Assembly: GCA_913046825.1 (NCBI GenBank)
Contig: CAJWTF010000082.1
Span: forward strand, 1-16,465
Direction: 5' to 3'
DNA: 16,465 nt
Source: an uncultured Rickettsiales bacterium
Lineage (GTDB): Bacteria > Pseudomonadota > Alphaproteobacteria > UBA8366
Shown here piece after piece: positions 6,009 to 8,539 of this stretch. Position 1 is the first letter of the stretch; each line of letters begins with the position of its first letter. The position numbers were made by a program, and so were the translations under genes. The notes under the pieces were generated by a model. The model saw only the letters and a program-made list of their open reading frames with translations, searched no databases and had not been told where the DNA came from.

Positions 6009-7028
6009 TCAGTTCTTCGATTTATCGACAAGCTTGTTCTCCGACAACCACGGCATCATAGCGCGCAAACGGGCACCTACTTCCTCGCTGTCGTGTTCGC
6101 TGGAGCTGCGGCGCATGGCCTTGAGGCTCGGCTGGCCGACTTCGCATTCGGTCATCCATTCGCGCACGAACCGGCCCGATTGAATATCGGCCAAGAGCGA
6201 CTTCATGTTTTCCTTCACATGATCGTCGATGATCCGGTCGCCGGCGGAGAGGTCACCGTACTCGGCTGTGTTGGAGACCGAGTAGCGCATGTCGGAGATG
6301 CCGCCTTCGTAGACCAGGTCGACGATCAGTTTCACCTCGTGCATGCACTCGAAATATGCCATCTCGGGCGCGTAGCCGGCTTCCACGAGGGTATCGAACC
6401 CGGCTTGCATCAAACGGGTGAGACCACCACAGAGAACCGCTTGCTCGCCGAACAAATCGGTTTCGCATTCCTCGCGGAAGGTCGTCTCGATGATTCCGGC
6501 GCGGGCGCCGCCGATAGCGGAGCCGTAACTGAGGCCGATATCGTGACAGTTTCCGGTCGGGTTGGCGTGTACCGCGAGCAGCGAAGGGACGCCGGCGCCG
6601 CGCTCATACTCGGAGCGGACGGTGTGGCCGGGGCCTTTCGGTGCGATCATGAAGACGTCAATGTCGTCACGGGGCTCGATCAAGCCGAAGTGAATGTTGA
6701 GGCCGTGCGCGAAGGCTAAGGCGGCGCCTTCCTTAATGTTCGGCTCAAGGTCGTCATAATACAGCGCGCGTTGGCCCTCATCCGGGGTCAGCACCATAAT
6801 AATGTCACCCCATTTAGCGGCGTCCGCGGGGGATATCACTTCAAAACCGGCGGCTTCCGCCTTGGGAACGCTGCCGGAGCCGGGGCGAAGGGCGATCTTA
6901 ACCTCTTTCACTCCAGAATCACGCATGTTCATGGAATGGGCATGGCCCTGGCTGCCGTATCCTACGATGACGACTTTCTTTGATTTGACGAGATTGACGT
7001 CGGCATCGCGATCATAATAGACGCGCAT
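6009..7028 (-). CDS. ilvC: Ketol-acid reductoisomerase, class I (short bacterial form)
   Basis: This NADPH- and Mg-dependent enzyme converts acetolactate or acetohydroxybutyrate to the dihydroxy acids of valine/leucine and isoleucine synthesis. The 339-residue protein has the Rossmann motif GYGSQG (23-28), the NADPH-type loop ALRPGSGS (46-53), His108, the PKGPG loop at 130-134, metal ligands Asp191/Glu195 (DLFGEQ) and Glu227/Glu231 (ECMHE), and Ser252 in SVSNTAEYG. Length and sequence are those of ordinary alphaproteobacterial IlvC. The ATG at 7028 is preceded by AAGAGGA; the frame continues upstream into the neighbouring gene but has no family resemblance there. It is the last gene of the ilv unit, 29 nt after a second, unlike ilvC. 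All catalytic residues are present, so it should be active. Confidence 0.96.
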   Translation of the reverse strand: MRVYYDRDADVNLVKSKKVVIVGYGSQGHAHSMNMRDSGVKEVKIALRPGSGSVPKAEAAGFEVISPADAAKWGDIIMVLTPDEGQRALYYDDLEPNIKEGAALAFAHGLNIHFGLIEPRDDIDVFMIAPKGPGHTVRSEYERGAGVPSLLAVHANPTGNCHDIGLSYGSAIGGARAGIIETTFREECETDLFGEQAVLCGGLTRLMQAGFDTLVEAGYAPEMAYFECMHEVKLIVDLVYEGGISDMRYSVSNTAEYGDLSAGDRIIDDHVKENMKSLLADIQSGRFVREWMTECEVGQPSLKAMRRSSSEHDSEEVGARLRAMMPWLSENKLVDKSKN

Positions 7029-7057
7029 ATTAATAGTCCTCTTGTTTTCGTTCTGGC

Positions 7058-8539
7058 TCAGTCGCGACGCGACGGCACGACCGCTATGTCGACCGATGGA
7101 CGCAACTCGGCGCATACCTTGAGCACTTCGTGGATGTTGCTGGACATGAATTTATCGAACGGCGTTTCGTCCTCAACAGTGTCGGCGTCAGCCGACGGGA
7201 ATGTCTGCTGCTTAAGGATATAGTCGAAGCGCGAAGCCCATTTACGCGCGCCGAGGCGCGCCGTCGTTGAGCAATTGTCTACCATGAAGGAAACGCCCTT
7301 ATAGTCCATGTAAGGGTTTAGCGAGTCGACTGCCTCGATGATCGATTCATTAGCGATTTCCGAATAAGGATGGCCGCGGTCCTTCAACAGATCAGCTTGG
7401 GCCATCATGCAGGCCATGTAGGTGCCAGCGGTCTCGGGATTGATCGGCGCATAGTTACGTTGGCTGTCGGCCCGTACCTCTTCGCCGACCACCCACATGT
7501 CGGTGCTGTCGATTCTACCCATCGGGTAGGTGCCATGTCGTCGTGTCGCCTGGATCACGCTACGCACTTCGTTGCCAGAGGCAACGTCGTCGTAAATTTC
7601 CTCAAGGATTTCACGACATGGATGATAGGCCGCATTGTATGCTTTACGGAAGGCGACCTTCTCACTCTCGTCGAGCTCTTCGTAGACTGATTTCAGACCA
7701 GAACGCGAGATCGACTTACTGATCGGTCCGGTGATCGATTCCGATGTATTGAGGTAAGCGTCATCCTTGGCCATGCCCTGGCCGATATAGCGCGCATAGA
7801 GACTTTCAGCGATGCCGTGTACCGCACCCAACAGGATGCCGCGCTCACCGAAGATATCGGAACGGTACTCCGATTCCAGCGTGGTCTCGAACGTGTAGGG
7901 AGAGCCGAGTGCTACCGACCAGCCAAGAGCATACTCGGTGGCCTTACCGGTGGTGTCCTGGTGGACCGCGAAACTGGCGTTGATGCCGGCTCCGTTGACT
8001 TCCCGGCCTTGTTCGTAGAGTCGGCGTACCGACGGACCCATGCCTTTGGGGCAGACCGCCACGACATTGATTTCTTTTGGAAATTCTTCGCCTTGCGCCT
8101 GTAGGTGGGAGAGCAGGAAGCCATGGCTCAGGCCCAGCGTCGTTCCTGGTCGGAAGGCGGCGAAGATCTCCTTGTAGTTCTCTGCGAAGGCCGCATCGGA
8201 GATCAGAAGGAGCGACATGTCGCTCTCGCGGATTGTGTCATACATCTCGCCGAGCGTACCGTCTGCCTCGGTGAATCCGACCGCCTCCGCTTCTTTCATG
8301 GAGGAAGATCCCTTGCGAAGACCCACTTTCACCCGAATGTCAGTGCCTTCAAAGGATTCGCGCAGGTTCTGTGCCTGCGCTGGGCCCTGTGACGACCAGC
8401 CGATGACGGCTATCTGTTTGACCCCATCGAACGCCTTTGGCAGCAGTGGGAACAGGTGGCGTCCGCCGGCGACAATGGTCTCCTCGCGGTCGGCCATTTT
8501 TATCGTGCGGGTTTCAAACACATTCGAAATGAAGCTCAT
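7058..8539 (-). CDS. ilvC: Second ketol-acid reductoisomerase, long plant-like class II form
   Basis: This 493-residue protein catalyses, by homology, the same step as the short IlvC beside it, but belongs to the long KARI class with two knotted C-terminal domains. Its wording is close to the plant chloroplast enzyme as I remember it: SQGPAQAQNLR (50-60), GLSHGFLLSHLQ, CPKGMGPSVRRLY (163-175), SDIFGERGILLGAVHG (227-242) and FMVDNCSTTARLG (418-430). It does not resemble the E. coli long form. Metal and substrate ligands are intact: Asp228/Glu232, Glu398/Glu402 and Ser424. The Rossmann glycine motif reads GWSSQG (47-52) where plants have GWGSQG. The ATG at 8539 has GAGGAA upstream; the alternative Met15 has no Shine-Dalgarno. 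It sits between ilvN and the short ilvC. It may be an isozyme, possibly acquired by transfer; that is inference. Confidence 0.93.
   Translation of the reverse strand: MSFISNVFETRTIKMADREETIVAGGRHLFPLLPKAFDGVKQIAVIGWSSQGPAQAQNLRESFEGTDIRVKVGLRKGSSSMKEAEAVGFTEADGTLGEMYDTIRESDMSLLLISDAAFAENYKEIFAAFRPGTTLGLSHGFLLSHLQAQGEEFPKEINVVAVCPKGMGPSVRRLYEQGREVNGAGINASFAVHQDTTGKATEYALGWSVALGSPYTFETTLESEYRSDIFGERGILLGAVHGIAESLYARYIGQGMAKDDAYLNTSESITGPISKSISRSGLKSVYEELDESEKVAFRKAYNAAYHPCREILEEIYDDVASGNEVRSVIQATRRHGTYPMGRIDSTDMWVVGEEVRADSQRNYAPINPETAGTYMACMMAQADLLKDRGHPYSEIANESIIEAVDSLNPYMDYKGVSFMVDNCSTTARLGARKWASRFDYILKQQTFPSADADTVEDETPFDKFMSSNIHEVLKVCAELRPSVDIAVVPSRRD

Follow-up and report, generated by a model that had tools for sequence, protein, structure and literature searches.

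The ilv operon and its two reductoisomerases

The stretch of DNA analysed here (the window) is the 16,465-nucleotide contig CAJWTF010000082.1 of an uncultured Rickettsiales bacterium (GenBank assembly GCA_913046825.1). Its minus strand carries an ilv operon in which two genes for ketol-acid reductoisomerase (KARI) stand in tandem, one encoding a class II enzyme of 493 amino acids (LONG) and the other a class I enzyme of 339 amino acids (SHORT). The gene order is ilvB-ilvN-LONG-SHORT, followed by mreB, mreC, mreD, mrdA and rodA. An initial annotation had reported this operon order, a distance of 29 nucleotides between the KARI genes and the integrity of both, and the coordinates below bear it out. 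Loci L001, L002, L003 and L141, used throughout for comparison, are those of genomes G001, G002, G003 and G087, respectively.

9143..10915, minus strand: ilvB, large subunit of acetohydroxyacid synthase (AHAS), start set at MATDK (NCBIfam NF006581, 1063 bits, cut-off 974; syntenic across the taxonomic order of G002)
8570..9133, minus strand: ilvN, small subunit of AHAS (NF008864, 201 bits, cut-off 119; Pfam ACT and ALS_ss_C)
7058..8539, minus strand: LONG, imported plant-type class II KARI, 493 amino acids (matches to PDB 3fr7 and 1qmg; KARI_N and two KARI_C; tree; catalytic residues)
7029..7057, minus strand: spacer between LONG and SHORT, 29 nucleotides, with the Shine-Dalgarno-like AAGAGGA (equal length in L002 and L003)
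6009..7028, minus strand: SHORT, native class I KARI (ilvC), 339 amino acids (NF004017, 541 bits; SHORT tree; catalytic residues invariant across all 21 rows)
4578..5615, minus strand: mreB, by which the orthologous position is anchored on the downstream side (synteny by tblastn with L001, L002, L141 and genomes of the order)
96..4506, minus strand: mreC, mreD, mrdA and rodA, the remainder of the conserved downstream block
11880..12884, plus strand: serB-like gene, an open reading frame (ORF) of 334 amino acids, the conserved upstream landmark (synteny in L001, L002, L003, L141 and genomes of the order)

The name serB-like is our presumption, and the query used for synteny with this gene started at position 11955. 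SHORT is counted from MRVYYD; the listed ORF of 368 amino acids uses an upstream ATG within the 3' end of LONG. A purine-rich, Shine-Dalgarno-like stretch precedes both ATGs (CGAGGAACCTCCTG-ATG and AAGAGGACTATTAAT-ATG), in agreement with the earlier claim that each gene has its own ribosome-binding site. Judged by the 29-nucleotide spacing, LONG and SHORT would be translated from one mRNA. Five terminator-like sites were found between 5600 and 11100, every one on the opposite strand, and on the operon strand LONG contains a weak promoter-like site (7541-7512). Since both scans gave counts near those of shuffled sequence (promoters: 5 sites, shuffled mean 2.7, standard deviation 1.5; terminators: 5 and 4.9), we draw no conclusion from them. 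A search of Rfam at gathering scores gave no match to an RNA regulator anywhere in the window.

LONG is plant-type by class. It matches the rice enzyme (3fr7) at 669 bits and 62.5% identity and the spinach enzyme (1qmg) at 650 bits and 60.8% identity, in both cases over nearly the whole length, whereas the class II KARI of Escherichia coli (1yrl) is matched at 68 bits only and the corresponding model, NF003557, at 76 bits against a cut-off of 713. In Pfam, LONG passes both KARI domains, KARI_N once and KARI_C in two stretches, i.e. with a duplicated knot domain. In NCBIfam it matches four KARI models and reaches the cut-off of none, which may explain the name 'hypothetical protein' among its relatives. 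Across 91 aligned rows, E232, E398 and S424 are conserved in 91, and D228 and E402 in 90 (one X each). We take the four acidic residues to be Mg2+ ligands and Ser424 to be the active-site serine, presumably equivalent to D315, E319, E492, E496 and S518 of the plant enzyme. The R-x-x-S-x-S loop of the NADPH type (R75, S78 and S80) is invariant in 91/91 rows. The glycine-rich nucleotide-binding motif at position 49 of the window protein reads GWSSQG in 58 of 81 rows, the window included, and GWGSQG in 21; rice has GWGSQG, spinach GWGSQA, and L040 neither GWSSQG nor GWGSQG.

SHORT is a class I KARI of the ordinary kind, with one KARI_C stretch (cut-off of NF004017, 336 bits). Its K131, D191, E195, E227, E231, S252 and H108, which we assume to be the catalytic positions, are invariant in the 21 aligned rows. 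The metal-binding Asp/Glu and active-site Ser noted earlier are thus kept in both enzymes, as far as the assumed positions go. The NADPH-type loop of the window SHORT consists of R48, S51 and S53, positions 48 and 53 varying among some of the 21 rows. Eleven listed protein clusters (P0123-P0133), all of 339 amino acids, are 86-98% identical to the window SHORT, their linkage to LONG not being seen; P0133 diverges from its fellow clusters in the C-terminal third. Two further class I proteins, P0121 and P0122 (488 and 494 amino acids), contain an internally repeated segment. The repeat of P0122 looks nearly identical and is probably an assembly error; the copies in P0121 differ slightly. A tandem duplication of one gene as the source of LONG and SHORT was ruled out, the two being members of different KARI classes.

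Insertion of LONG into an existing operon

The 43 genomes searched from the order of G002 comprise 35 with class I KARI only, two with the tandem (G002 and G003), two with LONG alone (G001 and G087) and four with no KARI match; LONG was accordingly without a match in 39 of the 43. Class I KARI is present as fragments in G073 and G076. Within the fetched stretches, 23 of the 35 SHORT-only genomes have the order ilvN-SHORT-mreB, including G073 with divergent ilv genes, and the gap between ilvN and SHORT is 55-109 nucleotides in 18 of these and larger in five. The others have ilvN-SHORT without mreB in the stretch (four), SHORT and mreB without ilvN (two) or SHORT alone (six). In the window, in L002 (whole) and in L003, LONG sits between ilvN and SHORT, the contig of L003 breaking off some 262 codons into SHORT. 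In L001 and L141, mreB follows directly after LONG. No match to a class I KARI was found elsewhere in the G001 and G087 genomes, and no credible remnant of SHORT in the L001 gap (best tblastn E value 0.05), which retains window-like sequence close to mreB.

At the same mreB-adjacent site, L158 of G073 (1-4157) carries divergent ilv genes, with ilvB at 39%, ilvN at 54% and a class I ilvC at 48%, the KARI_C match of the last being split in two; this is possibly a whole-operon replacement, or else an assembly error. On the upstream side, the serB-like gene and a major facilitator superfamily (MFS) transporter gene lie near each other in many of the order's genomes. In the window they are separated, over 13497-14795, by a small ORF and a gene for a D-isomer 2-hydroxyacid dehydrogenase.

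An assembly or binning artefact was considered, as L002 and L003 both come from records titled metagenome-assembled genome (MAG). The same order and the same 29-nucleotide spacer nevertheless recur there, with open frames and conserved flanks. We regard this explanation as very improbable and in effect refuted by the further assemblies, so that the tandem is real and no quirk of a single assembly.

The LONG tree, which omitted L003, L013, L031 (where the LONG match is divided between two frames), L059 and the loci above L080 except L141 and L183, places the window, L002, L001 and L141 together (SH-aLRT 99) beside a Reyranella group (87). The plant KARIs lie far off. Grouping with plants, which a KARI phylogeny was to check, was thus not found; a plant origin is unsupported and the source is not plants, the Reyranella-like enzymes being nearest. 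Because the ancestral order lacks LONG and its tree position is beside the Reyranella group, LONG is a horizontal acquisition into an existing ilvB-ilvN-ilvC operon, as the initial annotation had proposed. The GC content of LONG, overall and at third codon positions (GC3), resembles that of the neighbouring genes, and in this composition there is no sign of a recent import.

SHORT is the lineage's native ilvC, because the order ilvN-SHORT-mreB prevails in 23 of the 35 SHORT-only genomes and because the window SHORT groups alike in the SHORT, ilvB and mrdA trees. The IQ-TREE trees, of 27 rows each, used a subset of the rows in the FastTree trees. In the SHORT tree (IQ-TREE), the window groups with G081-G084 and G088-G090 (95/94), a placement that recurs for it with ilvB (IQ-TREE) and with mrdA (FastTree, 0.95). 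The SHORT genes of G002 and G003 group with G065 and G066 instead (97/93), and forcing window, G002 and G003 into one SHORT clade was rejected (approximately unbiased test, p-AU 0.005). In the ilvB tree (IQ-TREE), by contrast, G002 and G003 join the window, G001 and G087 (99/96), the latter two being sisters, and forcing the ilvB of G002 and G003 to G065 and G066 was rejected (p-AU 8e-8). The FastTree placement of ilvN agrees with that of ilvB (0.995), and serB groups G002 and G003 with G065 and G066 (0.999; the window serB was absent from this tree).

This conflict is mirrored along the operon of G002. In L002, on which the site map was built, the informative sites at 2564-2850 (the first ~290 nucleotides of ilvB) are G065/66-like (40:9), those at 2850-4913 (the rest of ilvB and ilvN) are window-like (221:97), and those from SHORT through mreB are again G065/66-like (269:63). 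LONG is unscorable since G065 and G066 lack it, and the exact downstream breakpoint is not fixed by the map. The spacer between LONG and SHORT is identical at 17 of its 29 nucleotides and shared in length. It looks, then, as if G002 descended from a G065-like genome that received the 3' part of ilvB, ilvN and LONG by recombination from the window's lineage, presumably in this direction, and placed them before the ilvC that it already had. That the tandem arose twice independently, as the positions of SHORT and serB of G002 and G003 elsewhere in the trees might suggest, was considered and set aside. The shared spacer and the site map favour instead a transfer of the block that took the junction downstream of it along, the crossovers lying within ilvB and close to where SHORT begins.

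In the simplest account, LONG would have come from a Reyranella-like alphaproteobacterial source and been inserted once, between ilvN and ilvC, in an ancestor that the window shares with G001 and G087, after which SHORT would have been lost in G001 and G087. The segment from the 3' part of ilvB through LONG may later have passed by recombination into the lineage of G002 and G003, before its own ilvC. The pair would thus have met three fates: it was kept (window), reduced to LONG alone (G001 and G087) or had its upstream block passed on (G002 and G003). A little-known alphaproteobacterial group therewith shows several stages of an enzyme replacement side by side.

Distribution of LONG and relation to known systems

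Two peptide patterns were scanned over one genome per species (84,980 species) and gave 409 confirmed loci, of which the best 80 were examined. By record title they belong to alpha- and gammaproteobacteria, Chloroflexota, cyanobacteria, Myxococcota, Spirochaetota, Verrucomicrobiota, Latescibacterota and others. LONG is the sole KARI match in 50 of these 80 LONG-bearing genomes, so plant-type class II KARI is no plant speciality. A further KARI ORF occurs in 30, being 19/50 and 11/30 in two batches of genomes; the second batch listed matches to an E value of 1e-20, and four of its eleven second ORFs are low-scoring and without class assignment. The assertion that long and short forms are usually alternative accordingly holds for the 50 genomes and fails for the 30. 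LONG and SHORT are adjacent in two of the 80, G002 and G003; several of the 80 stretches end at contig ends, and the genome-wide KARI positions reveal no further adjacent pair. An even draw of 385 genomes from the class of G002 held LONG in two, G002 itself and G156, the latter having LONG and a SHORT-type KARI unlinked.

In G016, G018 and G045, whose loci lie in records titled chromosome, LONG is the only KARI match, beside one AHAS large subunit and genes of the dihydroxyacid dehydratase (DHAD) family; because of this gene content LONG can very probably serve as the sole KARI. LONG is a second KARI, unlinked to the class I gene, in ten genomes of cyanobacteria (G036, G038, G040, G042, G477-G479, G485, G486 and G489), whose titles name Scytonema, Nostoc, Brasilonema and others. 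Plant-type KARI with 61-62% identity was also seen on large Streptomyces plasmids (H1-H3, and L183 at 4986-6467); ilvB and ilvN are absent among the annotated genes around it in the L183 stretch.

We found no account of a class I and class II KARI in tandem, or of plant-type KARI in alphaproteobacteria, among the papers listed by searches of an open-licence library, most subscription literature lying outside their scope. With the tandem in two of the 80 LONG-bearing genomes, LONG in two of the 385 genomes of the class and no such account among the papers listed, the pair does not appear to be one that is common and already described in relatives. The nearest counterpart of LONG is the plant class II KARI (rice 3fr7, spinach 1qmg/1yve), which it resembles in sequence (61-62% identity), catalytic residues, NADPH loop and duplicated C-terminal domain. 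LONG differs from it in being bacterial, in sharing an ilv operon with an adjacent class I KARI and in the motif GWSSQG, found in 58 of 81 LONG rows, for the plant GWGSQ(G/A). The E. coli-type class II KARI has a similar length of ~490 amino acids and differs in sequence, scoring 68 bits where rice scores 669 and with its model, NF003557, failed.

In mosaic operons and gene displacement in situ, an incoming foreign gene takes up the native gene's position in the operon. The pair, a xenologous isozyme pair with in-place displacement, represents this known sort of event. It departs from the usual form in that LONG stands beside the native gene, in that states before, with both genes and after are seen in one order, and in the second spread of the block. 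Streptomyces genomes, too, can hold a pair of KARI genes (ilvC1/ilvC2); one paralogue of S. viridifaciens is specialised, and in S. coelicolor the two stem from a recent duplication and are 97% identical (PMC4353338). LONG and SHORT differ from these in being of different classes and in tandem.

Roles of the two enzymes

Plants, fungi and bacteria all use KARI to make branched-chain amino acids, and the enzyme is under study as a target for herbicides and antibiotics as well as in biofuel engineering. The before, both and after states, together with the second spread of the block, allow a direct test of why a cell keeps two unlike enzymes. We read LONG and SHORT as co-transcribed isozymes for the same reactions, brought together by insertion of one beside the old gene of the other, still under selection and with different working ranges, a reading to which we give a probability of roughly 0.6. 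The gene anatomy, the insertion, the mosaic block, the absence of SHORT from the G001/G087 operon, the intact residues and the constraint in G002 and G003 are borne out by the data; enzyme activity, co-transcription and the kinetic difference are what we infer.

Neither gene shows decay, the catalytic residues being intact and both genes being constrained in G002 and G003. Between L002 and L003, SHORT differs at 7 synonymous and no nonsynonymous codons of 262, and LONG at 24 and one of 493. The values are 19 and 0 of 589 for ilvB, 8 and 0 of 187 for ilvN, and 11 and 8 of 319 for serB. At synonymous sites the window lies too far from its relatives for a usable ratio of nonsynonymous to synonymous rates (dN/dS). 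Where both are kept, both genes thus appear from their codons to be under purifying selection, and on this ground we take them to be co-expressed isozymes with different working ranges.

Both enzymes would be active on acetolactate and acetohydroxybutyrate with NADPH. The likeliest difference between them would be one of affinity: LONG may serve at low Mg2+ and low substrate, like the plant class II enzymes, and SHORT may carry the bulk flux. Plant KARI is reported to have a KM for Mg2+ of ~5 uM, where the bacterial and fungal enzymes have one of 420-900 uM, and to have a lower KM for acetolactate as well (PMC5940873). A more specific form of this idea, in which a high-affinity LONG (for low free Mg2+ and low acetohydroxy acid) and a high-flux class I enzyme form a stable pair on one ilv mRNA, the block moving as a unit, we put forward tentatively and hold to be rather unlikely as it stands. 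If it were true, selection would repeatedly favour the presence of both enzymes and not a mere swap.

Several observations weigh against our reading. Plant kinetics may not transfer to LONG, which is 61-62% identical to the two plant enzymes and has GWSSQG for the GWGSQG of rice. SHORT could have its own transcription start through the promoter-like site at 7541-7512. It is missing from G001 and G087 and hence dispensable at least there; G001, G002 and G003 are titled MAG, and the absences rest on possibly incomplete genomes. The species position of the window lineage is not firm, FastTree placing the window, G001 and G087 (mreB) or G001 and G087 (serB) elsewhere, weakly (0.765 and 0.803). Finally, the C20 tree flags the terminal branch of the window SHORT as long (0.31), and all five Tajima tests of window-like SHORT against L163 lean towards faster change on the window side (30:26 to 36:22; p 0.07-0.59).

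Accelerated or relaxed evolution of SHORT, a candidate prompted by the 76% identity between window and L002, was rejected, since these are SHORT genes of different lineages and the Tajima tests gave no significant excess, either for the window SHORT (31:26, 25:30 and 27:25) or for that of G002 (9:6 and 10:5). Five tests of window-like SHORT against L148 were even, reverse or slight (24:30 to 33:29). The deviations with p < 0.05 fell in other genes: mreB of the window against L163 (15:4, p = 0.012), mreD against L149 (15:34, p = 0.007) and mrdA against L148 (49:74, p = 0.024). The long terminal branch and the lean of the L163 tests leave accelerated evolution of the window SHORT some probability.

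One rival reading is a replacement still under way, in which LONG displaces a redundant SHORT that will be lost as it was in G001 and G087. The absence of SHORT at the same site in L001 and L141, and the 50 of 80 LONG-bearing genomes in which LONG is the only KARI match, speak for such a course. The retention of the catalytic residues by all 21 SHORT rows, the 7 synonymous and no nonsynonymous codons between L002 and L003 without significant acceleration, and the eleven clusters close to the window SHORT, all of full length though of unseen linkage, speak against it. We consider this a serious rival, albeit one with the odds against it.

A second serious rival is dosage. KARI is described as the slowest step of the pathway, with a kcat of ~0.1-2 per s (PMC5940873), and a second gene of whatever origin would lift the total activity; by their spacing, LONG and SHORT would belong to one transcription unit. 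However, relatives with a single KARI manage with one gene, and doubling the native gene in tandem would do equally well; we think dosage possible but doubtful as the reason for the pair.

The initial annotation had further suggested that the long form might use a different nucleotide, or that the two enzymes might divide the valine/leucine and isoleucine fluxes. Substrate splits do occur, a KARI paralogue of Streptomyces viridifaciens being selective for valine precursors (PMC4353338). A split by cofactor, NADPH in one enzyme and NADH in the other, is ruled against by the alike motifs, the R-x-x-S-x-S loop of the NADPH type being found in both window enzymes (R75/S78/S80 in 91/91 LONG rows; R48/S51/S53 in the window SHORT). 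A division by substrate fits poorly with relatives that live with either enzyme alone and with the finding of one AHAS large subunit, at an E value of 1e-150 or below, in each of 13 genomes checked; we judge a division of labour of either kind to be improbable.

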